Below are positions 1-12,930 of a DNA stretch of 64,000 nt, in pieces; positions within the stretch are counted from its first letter, which is position 1, and every line of letters starts with the position of its first letter. A program made the position numbers and the translations under genes. The stretch is from Hyphomicrobium sp. (GTDB lineage Bacteria; Pseudomonadota; Alphaproteobacteria; Rhizobiales; Hyphomicrobiaceae). The stretch spans positions 124,001-188,000 of the forward strand of contig NZ_JAIELN010000005.1 in NCBI RefSeq assembly GCF_019753045.1. Reading direction: 5' to 3'. The notes beneath the pieces were generated by a model. It saw nothing but the letters and a program-made list of their open reading frames with translations, was not told the origin of the DNA and did not search any database.

Positions 1-1839
1 ACCCACCACGCGACCAAGCAATGGCGGCTCGCCTGCGGCGGTAAGCGCCGAAGGCCATTTGTCGCCAAGCTCGATGAGCAGGCGGAAGAAAACCCATTCA
101 AAGAATATATCGTGCGTGAATGACACCATCGCGCCTGCGCGCTCAAGACGCACAATGTGATCCGCCTGAAGCGCTGCCAGTTGCGCGACGGTCTCCGGTT
201 CGAGAGCGCGGACTAAGATTTCCTTGCCGAGATTACGCACGCCTTTTTCAGCAAGATCGATAAGCGCGCGCTGACGTTGCGGCACCGTTTCAGCCATCGC
301 GTCGTGTCCGGCACGCAGCCACCACGCGTTGATCAAATCAGCTTCGGTTTTCGGCTCGGCGTCCTGCGGAAGGGCTTTGGCCAGAACCGCTGCAAAAAAC
401 GGACGCCGGGCGATCTGCTCCACCGCGCGGCTGGGGCTGAAAAGGAGTCGGCGGAGATGAGGCTTAGATTTGGCAAGGAGTTCGGCCTCCTCCTCGGAAA
501 ACCCCTTGACAGAAACGCTGCCCATACCCTTCGCGGAATAAAACGGTCGGGGAAACCAATTCCGGTAGGCTTCGAGACCTTGATCGCGCGAGCTGGCGAG
601 TACCTTCCAGTGCTGGAGACTTGGGTCGGCCTCAATGGCGCGGATGAGATCGGTGATGATGTGTTGTTGGTCTGGCCGGATACGATCGATGCCATCGATG
701 AAGAGGATGGGCGTACCTGAAGCACCGATTTCAGCGAGAAGATCGGGCACGTTGGTGTGGCGCAGACCGAGCGATGTCGCAAACGTCGTCCAGCTCGTTC
801 CTTGCAACCGGTCGTTTTTGAGAAAGAGGATCGGACCCGACTTCGCCGCGTTGGCTGCAAAGTGCTTCAGTACGGCTGACTTGCCGCAACCCGGCAGGCC
901 GCCGATGGAAACAACGCGATGCCTCTCAAGCTGCTGCGCGACTTCCGCCTGCAAACCGTCGCGCGCGACATGAAAATCATCAACAGATTCGGAAACATCG
1001 TTGAGGGCATCGAGCGATGCGGTGTTCAGCCGATTGATGTCGTCGCTGAAGTTCGGTGCCACTTTGAGACGCACAGAACCTTTCAGTTGGGCGAGCAAGG
1101 AGGATCGCGTCCATTTGGTTGCGTTTGCTGCGCCTTCGCGCGCGATGCGGCAAAGGCGGTCAAAAAGAAGGATGTCTTGACCGTCCACATTATCTGCGAT
1201 GAGCTCTTGCAGGCGATTGACGATCTCGGCGCGGAGCGCCCCGCCTTCGTCCAAACCTGCCAGGTGGAGCGCTACAAAGTTCCGGTAGAAGCTTACTTCC
1301 TCATCCAGATTTGCTGCGTTGATTACAATCCGTAGGGCTTCTCGTAATTTCTTATCGTCGGCTCCTGCCGTGCCTGTCGGCGCGAAGTATTGTTCGAAGT
1401 CCTTGGCGTCAGGGCTCGCCTTCGCCTTGCCGATCAGCCGCGAAAGGCTTCGGAAGGTCGCATCCGTGACATGCTCAACGACAATCCCGCTCGCGTCCGT
1501 TCCCTTGCCAAAGGTCTCGCATCCTTGCGTCTTCACAGCCGCCGCGATGATCTCTTTGAATTTCTCGTCAGCGCCGCTGATCGTGACGGAGCGTTTGACC
1601 TGAAGATCGATCGCTTTTTTTGTCCCGGCATCGTCCAGCCCGACGATGACGTCATCCATCGGATGGCCGTGACCTTGCCGTTGAACTGCGACGCTAGCGA
1701 CAATGCCGGGCTGGCCAGCCGCGCGCTCATGCCGGAGCAAATGCGCGAGATAATAGGCGACAACCGTGTCTTCATATGTGAACCCCGCACCGCCGGTCAG
1801 TTCGGTGGAGGCTGGTTTCTGATTAAGTGTGTCGTTCAA
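1..1839 (-). CDS. Avs-like nuclease-STAND NTPase, 3' end outside window
   Basis: Read by hand on the minus strand: an open frame of 613 codons with no stop before the left edge, so the ORF track omits it. Residues about 17-110 (LTGGAGFTYEDTVVAYYLAH, then DD at 62-63 and IDLQVKRS at 77-84) resemble the PD-(D/E)XK fold of Cap4/DUF4297-type nucleases, with a QxK core. A P-loop, GLPGCGKSA, lies near residue 313; a Walker B-like strand ILFIDGIDRI near 378-387 and a sensor-like strand KVLASSRD follow, as in STAND/NACHT-type NTPases. A C-terminal sensor region would lie beyond the window. Antiviral STAND (Avs) proteins have this order: nuclease, NTPase, sensor. The start is uncertain: an in-frame TAA at 1876-1878 leaves TTG at 1839 as the first plausible start, with a weak GGCAGGA before it. 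The function is inferred from domain order only; it could also be another NTPase-linked defence nuclease. Confidence 0.72.
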   Translation of the reverse strand, partial: MNDTLNQKPASTELTGGAGFTYEDTVVAYYLAHLLRHERAAGQPGIVASVAVQRQGHGHPMDDVIVGLDDAGTKKAIDLQVKRSVTISGADEKFKEIIAAAVKTQGCETFGKGTDASGIVVEHVTDATFRSLSRLIGKAKASPDAKDFEQYFAPTGTAGADDKKLREALRIVINAANLDEEVSFYRNFVALHLAGLDEGGALRAEIVNRLQELIADNVDGQDILLFDRLCRIAREGAANATKWTRSSLLAQLKGSVRLKVAPNFSDDINRLNTASLDALNDVSESVDDFHVARDGLQAEVAQQLERHRVVSIGGLPGCGKSAVLKHFAANAAKSGPILFLKNDRLQGTSWTTFATSLGLRHTNVPDLLAEIGASGTPILFIDGIDRIRPDQQHIITDLIRAIEADPSLQHWKVLASSRDQGLEAYRNWFPRPFYSAKGMGSVSVKGFSEEEAELLAKSKPHLRRLLFSPSRAVEQIARRPFFAAVLAKALPQDAEPKTEADLINAWWLRAGHDAMAETVPQRQRALIDLAEKGVRNLGKEILVRALEPETVAQLAALQADHIVRLERAGAMVSFTHDIFFEWVFFRLLIELGDKWPSALTAAGEPPLLGRVVG

Positions 1840-1879
1840 GGCGTCCTGCCGGGAATGTCTTTTTGAAAAGGTTTTTTAT

Positions 1880-2406
1880 GCGCGCGAGCAGTATACAGGG
1901 CGCAGGCCCTTTATTTAGGTGGCATTTGGAATCGGGCAAAGGCTTCACAAGCCTCATTCCCCAACGATAAGCCGATCACGCAGCCGGATGACGTAAGAGG
2001 GTTCGAACCACGAAATGGCGGATGTCCGCTTCGGGGTCATTTTCGACCAAGTCCGAGGGCGCTGCCTACCATTTGATGTCTGCTTTGCCTCAAAAGCGGC
2101 TGGGTCGATAAGAGCGGCGACGAGGCGACCGCTCCATCACTGGATCGAGGTTGATCGCATAAGGTTGCAGAGCTACCGCGCAAGCGTCCATATGATGCCA
2201 CTCATCTCAGACAATGCTCGGATTACAAAGAAGGCTGTTGGATCGCAGCGAGTGCACGGAATCTGAGTTGCATCCACTCTTGGGTTATGGACTGCTGTAG
2301 CAAGTCTCGTAACAGCCCCTGCTCGACTAGAATGTCCTTTGCTGTACCCGGTTTCGACCTAGGACGGGCATTTGAATGCCGGCTGGTAGGCTGGTGGCCA
2401 CCGGAC
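1880..2406. other. Intergenic stretch, no convincing gene
   Basis: About 530 bases between the NTPase gene and the terminator of the next gene. The 83-codon plus-strand ORF (2015-2266) shows no recognisable domain and no clear ribosome binding site. A perfect 10-bp palindrome, GGTGGCCACC, sits at 2393-2402. Confidence 0.5.
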
Positions 2407-2425
2407 TAAAAAGCCGCCTACGGCT
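2407..2425 (-). terminator. Intrinsic terminator of the 2435-2797 gene
   Basis: On the minus strand the sequence reads AGCCG-TAGG-CGGCT followed by TTTTT, just after the stop codon of the minus-strand gene ending at 2435. The 5-bp stem, 4-base loop and U-run fit a rho-independent terminator. Confidence 0.6.
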
Positions 2426-2434
2426 CAATACGGG

Positions 2435-2797
2435 CTATTCCTCCTCCGAGGCAGTCCAAAACTGGATGCGCAATCCCGAACGCTGGCGGTCATAGGCCAC
2501 AAGCTTCGAGGCCGCATGGATACTTTTCACCTCGGCGTCGATTGCGTGAGGAGACTGGGCATGACGGAAGCGCGCTGGTCCATCGGGAACGCCGGCGGCT
2601 ACCAAAGCGCGGCAGGCCGCAAAGATCACACTCGACGACGCTCGCTCGACCAACCGATGAGCATCGAGCATCGCTGTGAATTTCCCCCGCCCCGCCGAAT
2701 GAAGGGTGACCACAATCGGAACAACAGAATTTGTTCGCGACTCGTCGCTGCTCGTCAGATCTTGCGCCATCAAATCGGCGATTGGATAGTATTCCAT
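2435..2797 (-). CDS. Hypothetical protein, 120 aa
   Basis: No family recognised. The listed ORF is longer (203 aa), but its N-terminal part overlaps the upstream gene in another frame and has the arginine/serine-rich look of a shadow. The ATG at 2797 (MEYYPIADLMAQ) follows a good GGGAGG ribosome binding site about 7 bases upstream, so I chose it. The protein is soluble, with no signal or membrane segment. It ends in an acidic tail (TASEEE) and is followed at once by an intrinsic terminator. It sits 103 bases downstream of the winged-helix protein gene on the same strand, probably in the same island module. Confidence 0.6.
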   Translation of the reverse strand: MEYYPIADLMAQDLTSSDESRTNSVVPIVVTLHSAGRGKFTAMLDAHRLVERASSSVIFAACRALVAAGVPDGPARFRHAQSPHAIDAEVKSIHAASKLVAYDRQRSGLRIQFWTASEEE

Positions 2798-2900
2798 GTT
2801 CGTGCCTCCCTCGATCAATCTGCGCGCTGTTCCCGTGAAAACGACCAGCTCCGTCACCGACATGAACGCAAACGCCGCTCCTGAGCGATCCTCGTGAGCC

Positions 2901-4028
2901 TCAGATGCCTTTGAAGTTTCTCGCACCCCATCCGCCGCGACCGATGCTGAAGCGCTTCGGGCCGCCAGCAGCAGGCGAGCGCTTGTCCTGCTCCTGGTAG
3001 GCAAGCGCTTGGTTGATCTCGGCGAGGACCATCGTCGGCGTCGCATTGCGCGGATCTTTGGCGATGCGGGTCGCGGCCTTCACGAGCGCCGCGGAGAGAT
3101 CGAGGCCGCGCTCTGCGCAGTGCGTCTCGAACGACACAAGTGTTCCATTGACCAGCGTGAGCTTCCCGAGCTGGATGTCGTAGTGGACCCCCTCCGAGCC
3201 ATCGAGCGTCGTCAGTGCGCCATAGCGGCGATTGTTCCGGACGCTGTAGGCGTGAGGGTTCAGGTTGTTGAGGTCGGAGCCGAACCCAGACCCCAATGTT
3301 GCACCAACAACGTGCTGACCCCTATTTGTTGTATCTGCAATCTTCGAGCGGGGGGACATAGGGGGGTCTTCACTTGGTCCCGTTCCAGCGTGACGATTAC
3401 CGCTACTCTTCTCGGAAGAGCTTGCGCCAGCAAGAAGCGGGGTTTGGGCGCTCGTCGCCCTTTGGCCCTTCACTTGGTCTTTCGATTGGCCGTTATTAAT
3501 CCTTTTGGTCGCCTGAAATGGCGGGGGTGTATCGTCTGAATTGGCAGGGGCAATATCGTGTGAAATGGCGGGGGTACAATCGTGTGAAATGGTACTGGTG
3601 TTGCTCGCCGCACCATCGTTTGAAGTGGTGGGGCTGCTATCGCCCGAATTGGCGGGGGTATTGGGCACAGAGCCGTAGATGGAATAGACTTTCCTTTTGG
3701 CGCGTTCGGCGATCAGACTGTCGTGGATAGAATAGATGCGCTGGGCATTCACTTGCACGATTGGCGCTCGGCCAGGGCGCTCGGTTACGAAAATCAAACC
3801 TTCTTTGATCGCGGCTTGGCGCGCTCGACTTCCTGCGCGCGGATCAGTCGAGCCAACGGCTGCTGCATATGTGAAGTTGGACGCCCACGAGGTTCCACTT
3901 TCACTATTTTCGCGACGAAGCGCAACGAGCGCAGCCAGCTTCGGACGCATATTGATTTCTGGATCAAACAAGATGGCGTCGATGCGTTGAAAATCGCTCA
4001 ACTCATTCGTTTCATTCTTTTTGGACAA
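2901..4028 (-). CDS. Winged-helix DNA-binding protein with repetitive linker
   Basis: About 375 aa from the chosen TTG at 4028, which follows a GGGGGAG ribosome binding site. The listed 485-aa version starts inside the upstream AlpA-like gene and its first part looks like a shadow. Residues about 25-100 (MRPKLAALVALRRENSES, then TDPRAGSRARQAAIKEGLIF) look like a helix-turn-helix or winged helix of the type seen in plasmid, phage and island replication proteins. A low-complexity Ser/Asp/Pro linker encoded by 24-bp imperfect repeats follows. The C-terminal part (YGALTTLDGSEGVHYDIQLG, then a helical segment) is not recognised. It is downstream of an AlpA-like gene, so a role in island replication or excision control is plausible but inferred. 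Confidence 0.6.
   Translation of the reverse strand: MSKKNETNELSDFQRIDAILFDPEINMRPKLAALVALRRENSESGTSWASNFTYAAAVGSTDPRAGSRARQAAIKEGLIFVTERPGRAPIVQVNAQRIYSIHDSLIAERAKRKVYSIYGSVPNTPANSGDSSPTTSNDGAASNTSTISHDCTPAISHDIAPANSDDTPPPFQATKRINNGQSKDQVKGQRATSAQTPLLAGASSSEKSSGNRHAGTGPSEDPPMSPRSKIADTTNRGQHVVGATLGSGFGSDLNNLNPHAYSVRNNRRYGALTTLDGSEGVHYDIQLGKLTLVNGTLVSFETHCAERGLDLSAALVKAATRIAKDPRNATPTMVLAEINQALAYQEQDKRSPAAGGPKRFSIGRGGWGARNFKGI
3512..3667. repeat. 24-bp imperfect tandem repeats inside a gene
   Basis: Six imperfect units on the plus strand, such as GTGAAATGGCGGGGGTACAATCGT, with period 24; the fourth unit is 36 bases long. They encode 8-residue repeats on the minus strand (ISHDCTPA, ISHDIAPA, NSDDTPPP) that form the linker of the winged-helix protein. 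Confidence 0.75.
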
Positions 4029-4222
4029 TGCACAAATCTCCCCCCGTTCGTCGTCAAGACAATCTTGACGGCGCTTTCGACTGCTCGTAAGTGGGAGATC
4101 AGATCTGCTGTCTTGATCTTCCCGATCTTCGACAAAAATCCGCGAGGTTCTGGCGAGCCTCGCTCCACAATCTGAGCCGGTGGTCTTGCAGGACTGCCGG
4201 TTCTTTCGTTTCTGAAAACTCG

Positions 4223-4471
4223 TTACGCTGACTTCTGCATGACGCGTGCGTCGCGCTCTGCAATGCGCTCGCGTTGCCAGCGAATGATGTCGGACTCCAA
4301 AAAACCGATCCTTGAATTTGATGTTCGAATTGGCGCGGGATAGGCACCCTTGGGCCAACCGCGCTTCAACGTGCTGACAGAAATACCGAGGCGCTCTGCA
4401 GCGCCGGAAATACCAAAAATGCGCCCCGCGACGATTCCAGCGACAATCGCGTCTTCGTTTGGCGATGCCAT
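4223..4471 (-). CDS. AlpA-like helix-turn-helix regulator
   Basis: An 82-aa protein with the layout of AlpA/MerR-like excisionase-type DNA-binding proteins. IFGISGAAERLGISVSTLKRGWPKGAYPAPIR gives the helix-turn-helix and wing, and the typical ending GFLESDIIRWQRERIAERDA follows. These proteins regulate integrase or excision genes of prophages and genomic islands. It lies upstream of the winged-helix protein gene on the same strand (about 195 bases to the preferred TTG start), which suggests one operon. The family call is firm; the target is unknown. Confidence 0.8.
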   Translation of the reverse strand: MASPNEDAIVAGIVAGRIFGISGAAERLGISVSTLKRGWPKGAYPAPIRTSNSRIGFLESDIIRWQRERIAERDARVMQKSA

Positions 4472-4678
4472 CGTATTAGACCCCGTATGATCAGTCTTGC
4501 GATATGTCGTTTATATGCCTTTCTCTTCTAAACTTCCATCGTAACCCATTGAACTGCCTGTCAAATTTTTCTGGACAGGCAGCACACTCAAGTCATTGGA
4601 TGGATTCAGCTTTTTTGTTGCCCGCTATCGCCAATTCCAATTTGCTTTCGCGGAATCGGATACTTGTTGTTGATAAAC

Positions 4679-5068
4679 ATGCAATTTGTAGCGGCCATCC
4701 CCAAAATGGATCACTCTCTGATCAAGACCGAATGCGCCAGACTCGCAAGAAGTGCCGAGTTTTGGGGCGCGGAGCCACAGGGCGGGGCACTCGCGGAGCT
4801 TGCCCAGTATCTAGCTGCCAATGACATCGTGGGCGCGATGTGGGTCAGGGATGACCTTCTGGACGCGCGCAACCAGGCAAGACAGAGAAGGCTAGCCCTG
4901 GCGGGAGAGGTTTTAGAAGGGATCATATTGGCGCCTGTGGCGCTGCTGGCGAGGATCGGAAAATCAATTCAGAAGGCATTTCCGTCGATACTCGAAATTG
5001 CCATCTGGTTATCTCTCATCTTGATACCTGTCTGCGCCCCCTGGCTCGCGCACTTGCTCGGACACTAA
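4679..5068 (+). CDS. Hypothetical protein with C-terminal membrane segment
   Basis: About 129 aa from the ATG at 4679. An in-frame TTG at 4664 and an ATG at 4706 are alternatives, and none has a strong ribosome binding site. The first 90 residues look helical and charged (ARLARSAEFWGAEPQGGALAE). The C-terminus, FPSILEIAIWLSLILIPVCA, forms one hydrophobic span. No family is recognised. It is divergent from the AlpA-like gene and tail-to-tail with the SRAP remnant, with which it overlaps slightly. Confidence 0.45.
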   Translation: MQFVAAIPKMDHSLIKTECARLARSAEFWGAEPQGGALAELAQYLAANDIVGAMWVRDDLLDARNQARQRRLALAGEVLEGIILAPVALLARIGKSIQKAFPSILEIAIWLSLILIPVCAPWLAHLLGH

Positions 5069-5560
5069 AGTCGACCACTTTAGCCAAAGCCGCAATCGAG
5101 TCTGTATGCGAAAGGGGGCTGACACCTCGGCAAAGCGATGGTGCTCAACTGGTGCGTTCGGCGCCGTCGTCATGAACGAGTAGACGTCCAGCTCGACGTT
5201 CGGGCCGTCCTTCTTCACCGGTCCCTTCCAGCGCTGCCAGATGCCGGGAAATGCAAACAGGCGCCGCTCTTCGTCGCCATTGACGGCGAACCAATGGCGC
5301 CTTGCCGGCTTACCGGTATCGGGTTCGCAGTAGCTGGACGCGGGCACGAGGCAGCGGCACTGCTCAAATGACGGCTTCCAGAAACGGCTCGATAGGATTT
5401 TGTCGTCGCGCACATTGGTGACATGGCACGATGCTTTGCCCGGCTGGAGGAGCACGAAGCTCCAGCTCATAGTAACTAGTTCGCGCTCACCGTCTCCGAC
5501 CTAGCGGATCACGCTGCCGTTCCAGCCCGCGAAGATCGCGGGCTGCGGATCAATTCGGGT
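5009..5560 (-). pseudogene. Decayed SRAP (YedK/HMCES-like) gene
   Basis: The frame contains clear SRAP-family sequence: FVLLQPGKASCHVTNVRDDK, FWKPSFEQCRCLVPASSYCEP, LFAFPGIWQRWKGPVKKDG and VYSFMTTAPNAPV. SRAP proteins form protective crosslinks with abasic sites in single-stranded DNA through a Cys directly after the start Met. That MCGR-type N-terminus is missing. Upstream, the same frame continues (PAIFAGWNGSVIR, TAG, VGDGERELVT) through an in-frame stop that I read as a nonsense mutation. After TTAPNAPV the sequence diverges and the expected C-terminal part is gone. I therefore call it a pseudogene; the upstream extension is less sure than the core. Confidence 0.7.
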
Positions 5561-5889
5561 TGCTCGATTATCGGAGCCACAACAGCCGAGGATGATTCTA
5601 ATGCCGCACTCCTCGATGTGCGCGAGCGTCACGGCCATCCAGTCATTGCCACGCGGCAACGGGTGAGCGCGATCAATATCATTCTGTAGGATAGAGTTTT
5701 GGGTCGTACGGCGACATCGAGCAGGCCTCCAGATGGCTTGCCGATCCCCCCCTACCTGCCGGATACTCGATTGTGCGTCAGCCGTTCAACTCACGAATGG
5801 TTTCTGCTCCGCCGAGCCCAACGCGTTCAAGGAACGGGTCAGTTGCCGACGCCCGCGACCCGAGATAGTCTCATTTGGGGGATATCTCG

Positions 5890-6255
5890 ATGTTCAAGCG
5901 TTTCCTTGTAGTCGCTGCATCCGGCCTGACAATTCACGCGACGCTGTTGCGCGCTGACGCCTTGCCGTTGCCCGACCCAAGAGCCGAATCTGCATCGACG
6001 GAGACGACGACAAAAGAAGTGCTAACCGATGCTGCGATTGCTGCGCTGATCATCGCGGGCTCGATCGCACTTTACAAAGCGCGGGGTCGTCCATGCGCCT
6101 GCCCAAGCGACAGGATGCGAAATGGCCGGGCGTGCGGGGGGCGAAGCGCGTGGAGCAAAGCCGGCGGTGCAAAGCCACTGTGCTTTCCGACAGACATAAC
6201 CTCGGAAATGATTTCCGCTTATAGAGCCACCCAAGCCATACCGCCTGTGTGGTAA
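5890..6255 (+). CDS. Small exported protein with Cys-rich motif
   Basis: The ATG at 5890 follows GGGGGA at suitable spacing, giving 121 aa. The N-terminus, MFKRFLVVAASGLTIHATLL, is a plausible signal peptide ending near ADA. A second hydrophobic stretch, AAIAALIIAGSIALY, precedes the segment RPCACPSDRMRNGRACGGRS and then GGAKPLCFPTDI. Short proteins with this CACP...CGGRS...CFP pattern occur widely as uncharacterised Rhizobiales proteins. The role is unknown. Topology suggests a signal or anchor plus a second membrane span with the Cys motif after it. Confidence 0.7.
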   Translation: MFKRFLVVAASGLTIHATLLRADALPLPDPRAESASTETTTKEVLTDAAIAALIIAGSIALYKARGRPCACPSDRMRNGRACGGRSAWSKAGGAKPLCFPTDITSEMISAYRATQAIPPVW

Positions 6256-6275
6256 CGTTCAGTCATGGACCTGTG

Positions 6276-6461
6276 ATGCCCATCGATCCAACGCGAATAC
6301 TTTCGATCCTCAGTGAACTCGAACAAACGTCGCCAGACGCTTTGAAAGAAATGGATCGCGAGTTGCTGATATCGATCAAGAGCACGATTCAAGAACACAA
6401 GCGCAAAGTCGATAAGGTGCTTTTGCGGTTGTCGTTCGTCGATGGGCAGCAGTTGAACTAG
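6276..6461 (+). CDS. Possible small helical protein, 61 aa
   Basis: The ATG at 6276 opens MPIDPTRILSILSELEQTSP, followed by a charged helical stretch (DRELLISIKSTIQEHKRKVD). The composition is coding-like, but there is no recognisable ribosome binding site or family. It follows the exported Cys-motif gene by 20 bases. It overlaps by four bases, tail to tail, with the 42-aa gene on the other strand. Confidence 0.35.
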   Translation: MPIDPTRILSILSELEQTSPDALKEMDRELLISIKSTIQEHKRKVDKVLLRLSFVDGQQLN

Positions 6462-6586
6462 CCGAATTTTATCCAACAAGCGATCATCGCCACTGCGAGG
6501 ACCCAAGCTACCAGCCAAGCCGACCGACGCGGATCTACAGGTGGCCGACCACCATAATCTGGAGACTGCTCGTAACCGGACGGCAT
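6458..6586 (-). CDS. 42-aa single-span membrane protein
   Basis: Too short for the ORF track; found by reading the minus strand. ATG at 6586 is preceded by AGGAAG at five bases' spacing. The product has a short polar N-terminus with a Pro/Gly-rich patch (YGGRPPVDPRRS), then one membrane span, AWLVAWVLAVAMIACWI, and ends KFG. The positive residues before the span suggest an N-in orientation. No family is recognised; small proteins with this layout are common in Hyphomicrobiales. Confidence 0.5.
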   Translation of the reverse strand: MPSGYEQSPDYGGRPPVDPRRSAWLVAWVLAVAMIACWIKFG

Positions 6587-6837
6587 TTACGTCTTCCTAG
6601 ATTGGCTGCTTCGAAGGCAGAGTTCGTTCGCCTACCACGGCGAGTTGCTTCGGTCAGCAGCTAATCACTGATGGCGCCCCGTCGCGGGATAGTCGAGAGA
6701 CATAAGCGCGCGACCTTCGACAACCAGAAATCGCAGCAAACGTCCGACAGCGACGCAGTTGTATTAACACTGTCATCTCGAAGGCATAATGTCAGCGACG
6801 TCCGAAAAGCGTTCATCGATTAAACGGGTGTGGACCC
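6587..6837. other. Upstream region of the recombinase operon
   Basis: About 250 bases with no gene. It lies between the 42-aa gene and the recombinase and should hold the recombinase promoter. I see no clear -35/-10 pair or strong inverted repeat. Confidence 0.3.
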
Positions 6838-8364
6838 GTGGGGATTCGTGCTGCTGAATATGTTCGGATGTCGACCGAACATCAAAAATACTCAACCGAA
6901 AATCAATCCGATGCCATTCGGCAGTATGCAGCTCGGCGTGGGTACGACGTCGTCCGCACTTATGCTGATAAGGGCAAGAGCGGTCTACGTCTCGATGGCC
7001 GGGAGGGTCTCAAAAATCTAATCGACGACGTACAGAACAAAGACGCCGACTTCGAAGCTGTGCTTGTTTACGACGTGAGCCGCTGGGGTCGATTTCAAGA
7101 CGCCGACGAGAGCGCCTATTACGAATACATCTGCAAACGCGCGGGCATCCGTGTCGAATACTGTGCCGAACAATTCGAAAATGATGGGAGCCCCGTCTCG
7201 ACCATCGTCAAAGGCGTCAAGCGCGCGATGGCGGGCGAGTACAGTCGCGAACTATCCGCCAAGGTGTTCGCTGGCCAGTGTCGACTAATCGAGCTGGGAT
7301 TCAGGCAGGGTGGCCCGCCCGGCTATGGCTTGCGCCGCAAGCTTATTGATCAATCCGGCAATGCCAAAGGTGAATTGGCTCCAGGCGAACACAAAAGCAT
7401 TCAGACAGACCGGGTCGTCTTGATTCCCGGGCCTGCAAACGAAGTTGGGACGGTACGTTGGGTCTATAGAAGCTTCATTCGCGATGGAAAATCTGAGGCT
7501 GAAATTGCAGCACTTCTCAACGTGCGCGGGATTGTAACAGACTATGGGAGATCGTGGACGCGTGGGACAGTGCATCAGCTGCTCACGAACGAGAAATATG
7601 TCGGAAACAACGTTTGGAATCGGCGTTCGTTCAAGCTCAAAAAGAAGTACGTGACAAACTCTCCTGACATGTGGATCCGTGCCACGGGCGCCTTCGACCC
7701 AATCGTCACGTCGGAAGAGTTTCTCGCGGTTCGTGAAATTATCGAAAGGCGAACTGCTCGCCTTTCCGATGGCCAGATGCTTGAAGTTCTGCAGCAGGTC
7801 CTCGACGCAAACGGACGCTTATCAGGTCTGATTATTGATGAGTGGGAATCCGCCCCCTCTAGCAGCAGCTACGTACGACGTTTCGGAAGTCTGAGGCGCG
7901 CCTATAAGTTAATTGGTTATTCAGCAGAGCGCGACGAGAGACACTACGAAATTAATCGGACGCTGCGTGCGCTTCATCCCGAAATTGTTTCAAACATCTT
8001 GGAGGGCATTCATGCGCACGGCGGTAGCGCTCGGTTGCTTCCCGATTCTGGCGCGATCCTCATCAACGGTGAAGTTTTAGCGACGGTTACCATCGCTAGA
8101 TGCCGCACAACATTGTCCGGCGCATCGAGATGGATAGTCCACTTTGATCGCCGAACATGCTTCGATTTGATTATCGCCGTACGCATGGACGGGGCCAACG
8201 AGCGTCCGCGCGACTATTACCTTCTGCCTCGTCTTGACTTCGTCGAGAAAAAAATTCGGCTTGGAGAAAGTAACGGCATTTGGTTTGAGGCCTACCGCGT
8301 CGACAGTCTACAGCCTCTATTCGAACTCACCGCGAGAAACAGCGTAGCGGGGTTGGCAGCATGA
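6838..8364 (+). CDS. Large serine recombinase
   Basis: A 508-aa site-specific recombinase starting with GTG. The resolvase domain comes first: AAEYVRMSTEHQKYSTENQ carries the catalytic Ser, and DVSRWGRFQDADES and KRAMAGEYSRELSAKV carry the conserved Arg-rich helix. The recombinase domain follows (GFRQGGPPGYGLRR, then WVYRSFIRDGKSEAEIAALLN and RGTVHQLLTNEKYVGNNVWNRR). The C-terminal third is less typical. Such enzymes integrate and excise mobile elements. It overlaps the next gene by ATGA, so it heads a three-gene translationally coupled operon with two ParB-like proteins. The combination suggests an element with partition-like or regulatory functions linked to recombination. Confidence 0.92.
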   Translation: MGIRAAEYVRMSTEHQKYSTENQSDAIRQYAARRGYDVVRTYADKGKSGLRLDGREGLKNLIDDVQNKDADFEAVLVYDVSRWGRFQDADESAYYEYICKRAGIRVEYCAEQFENDGSPVSTIVKGVKRAMAGEYSRELSAKVFAGQCRLIELGFRQGGPPGYGLRRKLIDQSGNAKGELAPGEHKSIQTDRVVLIPGPANEVGTVRWVYRSFIRDGKSEAEIAALLNVRGIVTDYGRSWTRGTVHQLLTNEKYVGNNVWNRRSFKLKKKYVTNSPDMWIRATGAFDPIVTSEEFLAVREIIERRTARLSDGQMLEVLQQVLDANGRLSGLIIDEWESAPSSSSYVRRFGSLRRAYKLIGYSAERDERHYEINRTLRALHPEIVSNILEGIHAHGGSARLLPDSGAILINGEVLATVTIARCRTTLSGASRWIVHFDRRTCFDLIIAVRMDGANERPRDYYLLPRLDFVEKKIRLGESNGIWFEAYRVDSLQPLFELTARNSVAGLAA

Positions 8365-9254
8365 CCGAAGAAGAGGTCCAAGAAATCGAACTGATTTCTG
8401 TCGATCTGATCGACGTGCTCAATCCTCGCGTACGGCCAGATCGGTCTTTTGAGCAGATAAAAGCCAATATCTCGACTGTCGGACTGAAACGCCCCATCAC
8501 TGTCGCCCGCCGACAGCATCTGGACAGGAATCGGTACGACCTAGTATGCGGCCAGGGCCGATACGAAGCCTACCTCGCCCTCGGCGAAAAGCAGATACCA
8601 GCAGTGGTTATCGAGGCAAGCGAGCACGACTGCTTGGTAAGGAGTCTAGTCGAGAACTGCGCTCGCCGACGTAGGGGCGCTCTAGACCTCTTCAAAGACA
8701 TTCAGCGCATGAAAATACGCGGCTACTCTGTAAATGAGATAGCCACCAAAACGGGCCTACACAACAACTATGTCAGCGACATCAGCAGACTCTTTGATCG
8801 GGGCGAGGAACGCCTTCTGCAAGCGGTAGAAGCTGGCCAAATTCCAATCAGCGTGGCAATTGAAATAGCTGAATCGGACGATGCCGGTGTTCAGAAAGCT
8901 CTTACTCAAGCGTACGAAAAGAAAATCCTGCGCGGACGAAAGCTTATGGCGGTTAAGCGCCTAATCGATCGACGTCGCCAATACGGCAAGGGCTTTCCTT
9001 CCAAGCATCAGAAACGACAAACTTCTTTGACATCCCACGCGCTCGTCAAAACGTTCCAACAAGATGTCGATAGAAAGCGCGTTCTTATCAGGAAAGCTTC
9101 AGCCACCCGGGACAAATTGATATTCGCGGCTCACGCGCTCCGAACACTTTTTCATGATGAGAATTTCCGATCGTTGCTGCAGTCTGAGGGCTTGGACACT
9201 CTTCCCAAAAGCCTGGCCTCGCGGATTGAAACGGGAGCTGTGTCGGCCCAATGA
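8361..9254 (+). CDS. ParB/RepB-like partition protein (first copy)
   Basis: A 297-aa ParB/Spo0J-type protein. An N-terminal ParB domain contains ISVDLIDVLNPRVRPD, the fold segment GLKRPITVARR, and the box CGQGRYEAYLALGEKQIPAV in place of the usual GERRYRA. A helix-turn-helix follows (IRGYSVNEIATKTGLHNNYV). The C-terminal third is basic. ParB proteins bind centromere-like sites; no ParA ATPase gene is adjacent. The start ATG overlaps the recombinase stop (ATGA) and its stop overlaps the next start (ATGA). It may act as a regulator or accessory factor for recombination instead of a true segregation protein. Confidence 0.85.
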   Translation: MTEEEVQEIELISVDLIDVLNPRVRPDRSFEQIKANISTVGLKRPITVARRQHLDRNRYDLVCGQGRYEAYLALGEKQIPAVVIEASEHDCLVRSLVENCARRRRGALDLFKDIQRMKIRGYSVNEIATKTGLHNNYVSDISRLFDRGEERLLQAVEAGQIPISVAIEIAESDDAGVQKALTQAYEKKILRGRKLMAVKRLIDRRRQYGKGFPSKHQKRQTSLTSHALVKTFQQDVDRKRVLIRKASATRDKLIFAAHALRTLFHDENFRSLLQSEGLDTLPKSLASRIETGAVSAQ

Positions 9255-10144
9255 GCGCGAAATCTCGTGGTCCAGTAAAGCTGAGCTTCGAACGTAAGAC
9301 CGTGCGCATAGCGATCAACGACATTGCGCCGCTCCATCAAGTCGCACCTGCAGTAAAGAAAGGCGTCAAGTATCGGCAGATCTGCTCATCCATTAGAGAA
9401 GTCGGCACCATCGAACCGCCCGTTGTTTTACGTTCGGGCGAAGCCGGTAAGTACATCATGCTCGACGGCCACCTTCGGTTGGAGGCGTGCAAAGATTTAG
9501 CGCATACGCATTTGGTGTGTTTGATCGCGATCGACGATGAAGCGTTCACGTACAACAGACACATCAGCCGGCTCGCTGCCGTTCAAGAACACAAGATGAT
9601 TGTTCGGGCCATAGAGCGAGGAGTTCCGGAGAAAACGATCGCAAAAGCGCTCGACGTCAGAATTCCAACACTGCGAGCGAAGACGCAGATGCTTCACGGA
9701 ATATGCTCAGAGGCAGTCGATCTTCTCAAAGATAAGCATGTGCCGGTACACACTTTTGGGGCGCTCAAAAAAATGACCCCCCTCAGACAAATCGAGGCTG
9801 CCGAGCTGATGATCTCAATGAACATCTTTTCTCAAGGGTACGCAGCATCCCTCCTTGCGAGTACGCCAAAGGAGCAACTTGTCGAGCCCGACAAGCCCAA
9901 AAAGGTGAAGGGGCTCACCGAGCGGCAAATGGATATGATGGCTCGCGAATCTACGAGCCTAGATCGAGAGTTTAAAATGGTCGAGCAATCCTATGGTGGC
10001 GATCATTTGGAGCTCGTTCTCACGATCGGTTATCTGCGTAAGCTGATCGATAACACCCGTGTTACGCGCTACCTTGAGCGCAATTACCAAGAGATATATG
10101 CGGAGTTTCGTAGGCTGGTCGATTCAGGACAAGGCGCGACGTGA
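9251..10144 (+). CDS. ParB/RepB-like partition protein (second copy)
   Basis: A 297-aa protein of the plasmid RepB type. A ParB-like N-terminal domain has VRIAINDIAPLHQVAP, GTIEPPVVLR and YIMLDGHLRLEACKDLAHTH. A helix-turn-helix follows (VPEKTIAKALDVRIPTLRAK), and then a RepB-like C-terminal region (GALKKMTPLRQIEAAELMI). It differs strongly from the preceding ParB-like protein, so this is not a recent duplication. It is the last gene of the coupled operon, converging on the LuxR-type gene 12 bases away. Confidence 0.82.
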   Translation: MSAKSRGPVKLSFERKTVRIAINDIAPLHQVAPAVKKGVKYRQICSSIREVGTIEPPVVLRSGEAGKYIMLDGHLRLEACKDLAHTHLVCLIAIDDEAFTYNRHISRLAAVQEHKMIVRAIERGVPEKTIAKALDVRIPTLRAKTQMLHGICSEAVDLLKDKHVPVHTFGALKKMTPLRQIEAAELMISMNIFSQGYAASLLASTPKEQLVEPDKPKKVKGLTERQMDMMARESTSLDREFKMVEQSYGGDHLELVLTIGYLRKLIDNTRVTRYLERNYQEIYAEFRRLVDSGQGAT

Positions 10145-10156
10145 GGGAGTTATCTC

Positions 10157-10828
10157 TCACTCCTTCGTGGTGCGGTCTATTTGGTTCACGAGCATGGCCG
10201 CCCGTGTACGATTTGGCAGCTTAAGCTTCTGCAGAACGGCGGTCACATGCCGCTTAACGGTGTTAATCGAGCAAGATAGGTCGCCCGCAATCTCCACATT
10301 GCTCTTTCCCATACCGATGAGCTTGAGTACTTCGCGTTGACGGTCCGTGAGACTTTCAATGCCGTCGTAATAACCTTTCGGCTTTCGCCCATCCTGATGA
10401 GCCAATTGCTCGCCGCCCATGAGCGTCATGGCCATAGCCCTCTGAAGCAGCCCTTGGCTAAGTTCAGAAGGCATCTCTGCTTGGTGCTTGTCGCTGCCGA
10501 CCCACGGTGAAATGTCCATATGCACGAATAGCGCCCCGCCCTCCTTCGAAACGCCGAGCGGAACTCCGACGACCGCGAACCACGCATGGGTTCCGAGTGT
10601 CGGCGGAGGCATTACGAGCGACAGGAGTTGCCGACGGCGGTTCAACAAGCCGGTGATCGCATCCCGAAAACTTGAAGCGCACTGATCCGCGTAATTGCGA
10701 CCCTTGAGATTTACTGGAGCTGTGTCGTCGAGCATGTGGTGGGCCCGGACGTCTATGATTTCGCCAGATGGCCCAACCAGCACAGCGTAGGTGGGCAGTT
10801 CGACTGGCTTAGATTTGTTGCTGCTCAT
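10157..10828 (-). CDS. LuxR-type transcriptional regulator
   Basis: 223 aa with a C-terminal LuxR/FixJ helix-turn-helix (SLTDRQREVLKLIGMGKSNV, then IAGDLSCSINTVKRHVTAVL). The N-terminal 120 residues look like a PAS-type sensory fold (TYAVLVGPSGEIIDVRAHH). There is no receiver domain with a phosphorylatable Asp. It lies between the ParB operon, which converges on it, and the decayed phage-tail gene. Its signal and targets are unknown. Confidence 0.82.
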   Translation of the reverse strand: MSSNKSKPVELPTYAVLVGPSGEIIDVRAHHMLDDTAPVNLKGRNYADQCASSFRDAITGLLNRRRQLLSLVMPPPTLGTHAWFAVVGVPLGVSKEGGALFVHMDISPWVGSDKHQAEMPSELSQGLLQRAMAMTLMGGEQLAHQDGRKPKGYYDGIESLTDRQREVLKLIGMGKSNVEIAGDLSCSINTVKRHVTAVLQKLKLPNRTRAAMLVNQIDRTTKE

Positions 10829-10940
10829 GACACGCCAAACAGAAGAGAATCGTCAGATACTAATTGACTAGTACCATGAAACAGGCAACAAACCATTTCC
10901 TTCCTGTTGGATAGGGGTCGTGCGGCTGGGTGTTCGCTGT

Positions 10941-11395
10941 TCAATGGCGTGAAAGCTGGAATGGTCGTGAAGCGTGACGTCCGATCGACTCGGCCACCGC
11001 ACGAAAGCGAGAAATGCCGTGAAATGCCTCACCATCGGCGTCGCGGCGTGCTTCGGAAAACTCGTGGCGCAGATTGACGAGGCGATGGCCTTAGAGAGGA
11101 AGACGCTGGTTGTGTAGCGCATCACGCGCAGCCGCGATGACAGCCTATGCTTCTTTGCAGCCACGGGCGCGCGACCAGACGTGCAGCTGATGACGTGCTC
11201 GTAATCTTCATCCGTTCCGGTCGACCAATCGTGTTCCGCGGACTGGCCGAGCGTCATGAAAGGAAATTCTGCGCGCGCCGGAACGTCATCATAAATACGT
11301 GGCCCGCCAAGCGCTGTCGTTGCGGCGGCATCGCTCACCAACTTCGAGAAGATCGCCTGCTGAAGAGCGAAATCGTGGTCGAAATCAAACCACCC
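10941..11395 (-). pseudogene. Broken DUF3168 (phage tail terminator-like) gene
   Basis: Minus-strand sequence ALQQAIFSKLVSDAAATTAL, GPRIYDDVPARAEFPFMTLG and DWSTGTDEDYEHV matches the N-terminal half of DUF3168 proteins, which occur in phage and gene-transfer-agent tail modules. After EHVIS the frame shifts by one base. The second half continues in the neighbouring frame as HVWSRARGCKEA and AVIAAARDALHNQRLPL, interrupted by in-frame TAG and TAA. The ATG-containing ORF in the track (10868-11341) mixes true sequence with out-of-frame sequence. It lies 10 bases beyond the end of the integrase gene and reads as a relic of a prophage or GTA segment. Confidence 0.7.
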
Positions 11396-11404
11396 GAAGC
11401 CTAC

Positions 11405-12673
11405 TTACTTCACTAGGCGAGACAGGTGCCGCGCCCACCGGTCCAGCGCTTCCCACTTTTCTCTGGCGCCGTCGTGCCAATCATAGTGCTCCGCGGTGAC
11501 GCCCTTGGCCGTGTGATTTAGCACCATCCCAACGGTGTCACGATTGATCCCCAGGCGTCGCATGCCCGTGGCCGCCGAGCGACGGAGATCGTGAACGGTG
11601 GCAGGCGTCATCGATTTAAGAGTTTTGACGAAGAAATCGCGCTGGGCTGATGGCAGCACGACATCCGCGATCGGATTCTCTGCATCATCAGGACTCGGAA
11701 AAACAAGCAGCGAACCGCTGTCCGAACTGGCGGCTGCTGCTTCGGTGAAGAGCTGCGCGGCCAGGTGCGACAGGGGCACATAATGCTGGCGCCCGTTTTT
11801 AGAGTGCTCGACAGGAATCATCCAATAGGGCTCGGCGGCGGTTAGGTGCAGGTCCTGCTTGCGTGCTCGCCTCACCTCTCCTGGCCGCTGTGCGGTAACC
11901 AATACTAGCTTGAGCGCCAACTTCGTCCCGAGACGCTTCTCGCTATCGTCTAGCGCCCGCCACCATTTCGCGATCTCCGGATCGTCTAGAACACGCTCTC
12001 GCGCCTTCGGTTTCGTATAACTGCCGCCTGCCCCTCTCCTGCGTCGACCGAGCATCACCGCGGGATTCGAGGTGATCCCATAACGCTGTGCTAGACTAGG
12101 TTGATCGAGGATCACGTAGTTGTATAGCGCCTTCATGTGCATCACGAAACGCGAGGCCATCGCCTCTGAGCCACGGCGCAGAATGGCGCGGCCCACTTCG
12201 TCGATATCTCCGGCAGTGATCAGTGCCGGGTGTTTTGCGCCCAGCGCGGGAATTGCATCCTTCCGCAGCTCGCGCTCGGCCTCTCCAATGCGTGCAAGGC
12301 CTCTTCGTTCGGCCAGGTAGTCATCGAGCAACTCTGCAAAGGTGAGCTTCCCCTTAGCCTGGGCAGCCAGCAGGAGCCCGTCATTCGCGACGACGTCTCC
12401 CTCATTGGCCACCCGCTCCAGTAGCTCAGCCGATTTTTTCCGCGCCTGAACGAGGGTAGTCGCGGGGTACTGGCCCAACCTGACCTTTCGCTTTTTGCGG
12501 ACGCCGTCCTTCTGAATCGAATAGTGCGCCTTCCAGGTCTTGCGCCCCCTCTTGCTGATGTGAAGGACGAGGCCGGCAAGGTTTCTAAAGCGATACTCGA
12601 CGTCAGGTTGACATCCTACATACCGCGCTGCGCGAACCGAACGATCAGTGAATTGCAATTCGCGCAATGACAT
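11405..12673 (-). CDS. P4-type tyrosine integrase
   Basis: A 422-aa integrase of the family that inserts islands at tRNA genes. It has the N-terminal arm-binding DUF4102-type domain (YRFRNLAGLVLHISKRGRK, RKVRLGQYPATTLVQARKK), a SAM-like core-binding domain, and the catalytic domain with Arg in VTAQRPGEVRRAR, HxxR in VHDLRRSAATGMRR, the second His region in VLNHTAKG and the nucleophile Tyr in TAEHYDWHD. It looks intact. It reads away from the tRNA 3' fragment about 160 bases upstream, the expected layout at the end of a tRNA-integrated island. Confidence 0.93.
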   Translation of the reverse strand: MSLRELQFTDRSVRAARYVGCQPDVEYRFRNLAGLVLHISKRGRKTWKAHYSIQKDGVRKKRKVRLGQYPATTLVQARKKSAELLERVANEGDVVANDGLLLAAQAKGKLTFAELLDDYLAERRGLARIGEAERELRKDAIPALGAKHPALITAGDIDEVGRAILRRGSEAMASRFVMHMKALYNYVILDQPSLAQRYGITSNPAVMLGRRRRGAGGSYTKPKARERVLDDPEIAKWWRALDDSEKRLGTKLALKLVLVTAQRPGEVRRARKQDLHLTAAEPYWMIPVEHSKNGRQHYVPLSHLAAQLFTEAAAASSDSGSLLVFPSPDDAENPIADVVLPSAQRDFFVKTLKSMTPATVHDLRRSAATGMRRLGINRDTVGMVLNHTAKGVTAEHYDWHDGAREKWEALDRWARHLSRLVK

Positions 12674-12834
12674 TCTGGGTCCATTTGTGGGGGCACTTTT
12701 GTGAACCTAGGTGACCCGCATTGGCCCCGCAAGATCGACATCAGACTGTCAACAAGTCCTTTGTTTTTCGGATTTACTGCACATTCAAGAGGATCATATT
12801 GGATCAAGCGAGTTCATGCGATATCATACCAGAA

Positions 12835-12873
12835 ACCGTCTGGTTCCAGGTTCGAGTCCTGGCGGGCCCACCA
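12835..12873 (+). mobile_element. Orphan tRNA 3' end, integrase att site
   Basis: The sequence holds a perfect T-arm (CCAGG-TTCGAGT-CCTGG), then CGGGCCC, A and CCA: the 3' end of a tRNA with encoded CCA. No matching 5' half (GGGCCCG, D-arm) precedes it, so it is not a whole tRNA gene. An orphan 3' end arises when an island integrates into a tRNA gene, and the island then lies on its 5' side, here to the left where the integrase is. The intact tRNA and the other att copy should lie outside the window to the left. The amino acid identity cannot be read from this part. Confidence 0.8.
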
Positions 12874-12930
12874 ACGCGATTTTGGCACCCAGCGGACTGC
12901 TTTTAGGTCCATCCTAGGGTCGGCGCAGAT

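Follow-up and report, generated by a model that had tools for sequence, protein, structure and literature searches.

A probable single-gene antiviral STAND protein from Hyphomicrobium belonging to a family sister to Avs4

Avs proteins are the bacterial counterparts of NLR immune receptors, and published Avs surveys describe N-termini which vary within the Avs families. Avs1-3 sense the terminase and Avs4 senses the portal (PMC12724215). The nucleases of Avs1-4 kill (PMC12931631), and other Avs triggers differ (JADA in Avs5, Ksap1; PMC12931631). Furthermore, an effector pair consisting of an MBL nuclease and a trypsin-like protease has been described (PMC12799240).

Here, we analysed a window of 64,000 nucleotides from Hyphomicrobium sp. 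(contig NZ_JAIELN010000005.1, positions 124,001 to 188,000), whose left edge cuts through a large gene on the minus strand. The open frame at window positions 1..1839, which the original prediction had read as the start of an Avs-type protein, represents codons 1-613 of a complete gene encoding 1,767 amino acids. Extension of the contig leftwards placed this gene at C2:120536-125839 of the same contig, with C2:120536-124000 outside the window and no internal stops. Frame, coordinates and motifs were all reproduced as claimed when the sequence was re-examined. Translation starts at a TTG codon with AGGA about 6 bp upstream. In comparison with orthologues of 77-85% identity from Bradyrhizobium (L020, 85% identical) and a Hyphomicrobiales, dN/dS values of 0.08-0.17 were obtained in each domain; therefore, the gene is maintained under purifying selection. 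The claimed order of a nuclease followed by a STAND P-loop NTPase holds for the complete gene, in which effector, NTPase and helical-repeat sensor succeed one another.

The N-terminal effector module (residues 1-265; window 1045..1839, minus strand) was assigned by fold model and PADLOC to the HamA/LmuA/Cap4-type PD-(D/E)XK nucleases. Its end was set by residues 254-312, where relatives with exchanged effectors start to match, and by the end of the match to the PADLOC candidate DUF626_VIII, which detects 20 of 20 family members and covers residues 12-267 of the window protein. A model of residues 1-300, folded with 24 sequences (pLDDT 83), revealed the PD-(D/E)XK core of alpha-beta-beta-beta-alpha-beta topology (residues 22-123; window 1471..1776, minus strand; structure model and alignment), built from helix 22-35, strands 46-52, 64-70 and 73-84, helix 92-106 and strand 116-123. 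Residues E23, D62, D63, Q80 and K82, the latter two forming the QxK element (Q80-x-K82), are invariant in 24/24 sequences, and the motif DD...LQVKR is invariant or nearly so in the family alignments. Membership in the PD-(D/E)XK superfamily is thus indicated by both the core topology and the E / D / (E,Q)xK residues. The best Foldseek matches of the model were HamA (8zue, 2.7e-7), LmuA (9hr5, 4e-6), Avs3 (8dgc, 1.2e-5) and Cap4 (about 3e-5), with DUF4297-HerA ranking below them as a weaker match. The Pfam model Cap4_nuclease/DUF4297 (PF14130) matched none of 20 family members at E 0.1; in a search across the host family this model was silent everywhere, controls included, and that search has no bearing on absence. 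Of the proposed Cap4/DUF4297-like nuclease, the PD-(D/E)XK fold with its HamA, LmuA, Avs3 and Cap4 likeness was borne out, but the narrower Pfam assignment was not, and because no member matches the Pfam model we place the domain in the wider HamA/LmuA/Cap4 kind.

The central region showed weak yet consistent Pfam matches to NACHT, AAA_16 and nSTAND. Alignment located the Walker A motif GLPGCGKS (residues 314-321; window 877..900, minus strand) and the Walker B motif LFIDGIDR (residues 379-386; window 682..705, minus strand) of a STAND/NACHT-like NTPase, both intact and occupying nearly or fully invariant columns of the family alignment. The conserved motif FTHDIFFEWVF (residues 574-584; window 88..120, minus strand; by alignment) joins the NTPase to the sensor.

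Beyond the window edge, the C-terminal part of the protein consists of about 1,190 residues of alpha-solenoid, a large repeat domain homologous to the Avs4 sensor. Neither of the two outcomes named in advance as speaking against the original prediction, absence of the PD-(D/E)XK fold from the model or a complete gene whose C-terminus has no repeat or sensor domain, was thus observed. A single-sequence phmmer search of the PDB found nothing and Avs4 was found only with the family profile: with a profile of 20 relatives, the sole strong match was Avs4 (8dgf, E 1.3e-13), the aligned stretches falling in the NTPase, the linker and the sensor. Comparison by hhalign with genuine Avs4 proteins, collected with NF041815 and by plasmid search, gave 99.6% (E 1e-24, 1,183 columns), and the sensors, with the NTPase removed on both sides, still gave 98.3% (E 1.2e-14). 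The control comparison with Avs2 sensors yielded 0.1% (E 0.62), that is no homology, as did Avs4 sensors against Avs2 sensors (nil), and the PADLOC match to Avs2 is confined to the P-loop region (E 0.02). A model of the sensor from the Bradyrhizobium orthologue (residues 580-1767, pLDDT 85) matched 8dgf in Foldseek with E 3.3e-17 and a TM score of 0.61 over 1,238 columns, whereas the runner-up, the generic solenoid of an importin, reached a TM score of 0.17. The sensor is specifically related to that of Avs4 and not to that of Avs2. Since sensor identity to Avs4 is about 13-14% and the final 130 residues or so do not align to Avs4 by profile, the sensed target may have shifted from that of Avs4.

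The window protein is of the Avs kind but does not belong to Avs4 proper, because it failed three tests, namely score, nuclease family and clade. It scores 65.6 bits on the NCBIfam Avs4 model NF041815 with its cutoff of 1500, compared to 2088 for a genuine Avs4 (L058). The hhalign homology begins at residue 284/185, behind a nuclease of HamA/LmuA/Avs3/Cap4 resemblance rather than the Avs4-type N-terminal nuclease. In a tree of NTPase and sensor, which is unrooted and contains long branches, Avs4 proper lies beyond a long 100/100 branch. These results place the protein in a family sister to Avs4. The suggestion that the protein could be a new subtype gains support and is narrowed to an Avs4 sister family with a different nuclease, a reading which we prefer because the sensor is specifically Avs4-related. 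More distant relatives are L060 (G591) and L008/L009; L060 shows matches to the nuclease module and, at the same time, to Avs4 and PDC-M54A, and is possibly an intermediate between Avs4, PDC-M54A and the sister family.

A scan of GTDB genomes identified 27 loci in Alpha-, Beta- and Gammaproteobacteria, Magnetococcales and Desulfovibrio, and full-length relatives span all of these groups. More copies were found on plasmids and four on IMG/VR contigs; a search of annotated phage genomes found no relative. On a predicted viral contig, a family member (L065:854-2014, 5998-11358) has both an integrase and a Zot-like morphogenesis gene of inovirus type in its vicinity, which suggests carriage by a filamentous prophage. 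The distribution is patchy: matches at E <= 0.001 occur in 8 of 199 near relatives, and only two of these, apart from the host, are strong and full-length. An order-wide search with PDC-M54A returned mostly P-loop noise.

Three relatives (L035, L038 and L040) share just the NTPase and sensor and carry different N-termini. In L035 from Psychrobacter, we read the N-terminus as that of a trypsin-like protease (ITSKHSIC, KDLAII, GISGS; no Pfam match); the gene immediately upstream encodes a nuclease of the MBL fold with matches to LmuA/RTasMBL/Avs1a models. In L038 (L038:7322-12338), a 120-residue protein, probably with two transmembrane segments, is encoded just upstream of an effectorless member; this small gene is possibly a split membrane effector. 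In Enterobacter wuhouensis (L040:7332-8150), a helical module without Pfam or PADLOC match precedes the same NTPase-sensor; an integrase is found just upstream of this gene. In the unrooted NTPase and sensor tree, these relatives are placed among nuclease-bearing members (L040 with L032, 96/92; L038 with L039, 94/98). The family has had its effector module swapped several times on a common NTPase-sensor.

The gene resides on an island of 32,396 bp (C2:104438-136874) flanked by 41-bp copies of the 3' end of tRNA-Met, of which window positions 1-12874 form the right part. The right copy (window 12834..12874, plus strand) marks the island border, and the left copy (C2:104438-104478) belongs to the region of the intact tRNA-Met at C2:104402-104477, 32.4 kb to the left. 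Adjoining the right repeat is a tyrosine-type integrase (window 11405..12673, minus strand), recognised by reading of the sequence and by its likeness to integrase-like genes beside relatives, and presumed to be the island's own; a second tyrosine integrase (P0009) is also present. The original prediction of a tRNA-integrated island is upheld by repeats and integrase, except that no tRNA gene was found inside the window itself. Further genes of the island are candidate defence genes, encoding a CAP12/Pycsar-type TIR protein (PDC-S35) and a KAP NTPase (PDC-S49). Window 6838-10144 holds plasmid-like cargo, namely a serine recombinase and, behind it, two ParB/RepB-like genes that overlap.

Neighbours of the relatives include homologues of Shedu, type I and II RM, Gabija, DRT and pAgo; LmuA, RTasMBL and Avs1a matches in the neighbour scan are probably one MBL gene in L030 and were not treated as separate systems. 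On the same strand and 113 bp downstream, the STAND gene is followed by a 389-aa gene, which was rejected as a partner, having no family match and no homologue beside any relative. As only recombinases and one large-protein pair recur across the relatives' loci, we regard the gene as a one-gene system.

We estimate a probability of about 0.7 that the product of this one gene, without a partner, is an antiviral STAND sensor of Avs type from the Avs4 sister family, which senses a portal-like phage protein, oligomerises, cuts DNA and aborts infection. The protein would be inactive at rest. Its C-terminal alpha-solenoid would bind a conserved phage protein, most likely the portal as judged from the homology to the Avs4 sensor. 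Following the precedent of other Avs proteins, ligand binding would lead to oligomerisation through the NTPase, which would bring the N-terminal HamA/Cap4-type PD-(D/E)XK nuclease domains together. The nucleases could then cut cellular and phage double-stranded DNA so that the cell is killed or arrested and the infection stopped. The identity of the trigger appears to be the least certain of these steps.

This step is where the most serious rival arises, in which architecture and antiviral role are the same and the target is a phage protein other than the portal, such as terminase or another capsid-vertex or jumbo-phage protein, giving an independent Avs specificity. The long branch between the sister family and Avs4, the low sensor identity with its unaligned C-terminal end and the different triggers of other Avs proteins (JADA in Avs5, Ksap1; PMC12931631) all argue in this direction. 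Because the sensor finds its homology specifically in Avs4, with none to the terminase sensor Avs2, and because its fold follows that of portal-bound Avs4 throughout its length, we consider such a target somewhat unlikely. Slightly more weight, though still as a tentative proposal, may be given to a separate Avs type: an Avs4 sister family, found across Proteobacteria and in one Desulfovibrio, whose sensor chassis has been refitted repeatedly with differing killing modules and responds to its own phage trigger unlike that of Avs4.

Two further explanations dispense with phage protein sensing or with the single gene. A restriction-like NTPase-nuclease, or one excluding plasmids and other mobile elements, would act on incoming DNA; it would combine a PD-(D/E)XK nuclease and an NTPase in one protein as observed here, and the integrative island would be a fitting location. 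The fold match to HamA and LmuA also points to the nuclease kind of Hachiman and Lamassu, which in those systems is paired with DNA-sensing partners. The gene, however, has no conserved helicase, SMC or modification partner at its side, the C-terminus is a protein-sensing solenoid of the Avs4 type, and the swap of the effector for a protease makes little sense in a restriction enzyme, which leaves this explanation very unlikely. At least as improbable is that the protein constitutes one half of a two-gene system, the PADLOC candidate PDC-M54, with a required partner gene. PDC-M54A is indeed the top PADLOC match (E 1e-21, residues 17-593) and the downstream 389-aa gene is close enough to be considered, but the match ends short of the sensor, and neither the downstream gene, as described above, nor the recurrent neighbours of the relatives, confined to recombinases and the large-protein pair, provide such a partner.

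A family that is sister to Avs4, has the sensor fold in common and carries interchangeable effectors makes it possible to ask directly which residues of the sensor maintain recognition of the portal and which parts of the effector are truly plug-in. Current databases give the relatives no family name ('hypothetical protein', 'ATP-binding protein' or 'NACHT domain-containing protein'), and defence surveys may therefore miss the family.

Among known systems, Avs4 (AVAST type 4; NF041815, PDB 8dgf) is the closest. It shares the STAND NTPase, the THDI(F/Y)xEWA linker, which reads THDIYEEWAL in Avs4 where the window protein has FTHDIFFEWVF, and the alpha-solenoid sensor over about 1,180 columns, and it is likewise a single gene with an N-terminal nuclease effector. 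It differs in its nuclease family, with homology to the window protein only after residue 284. The nearest structures to residues 1-300 are the nucleases of Hachiman HamA, Lamassu LmuA and CBASS Cap4 and the N-terminal nuclease of Avs3, which have the PD-(D/E)XK core with QxK in common; HamA, LmuA and Cap4 work with helicase, SMC or SAVED partners, whereas the nuclease described here is fused to a STAND NTPase and an Avs4-type sensor. Two uncharacterised PADLOC candidates cover parts of the protein and not the sensor, PDC-M54A the effector and NTPase and DUF626_VIII the effector region. The Avs1-type pair of MBL nuclease and trypsin-like protease (PMC12799240) is carried by the Psychrobacter relative on the same NTPase-sensor, unlike the window gene, which possesses a fused PD-(D/E)XK nuclease and no protease.
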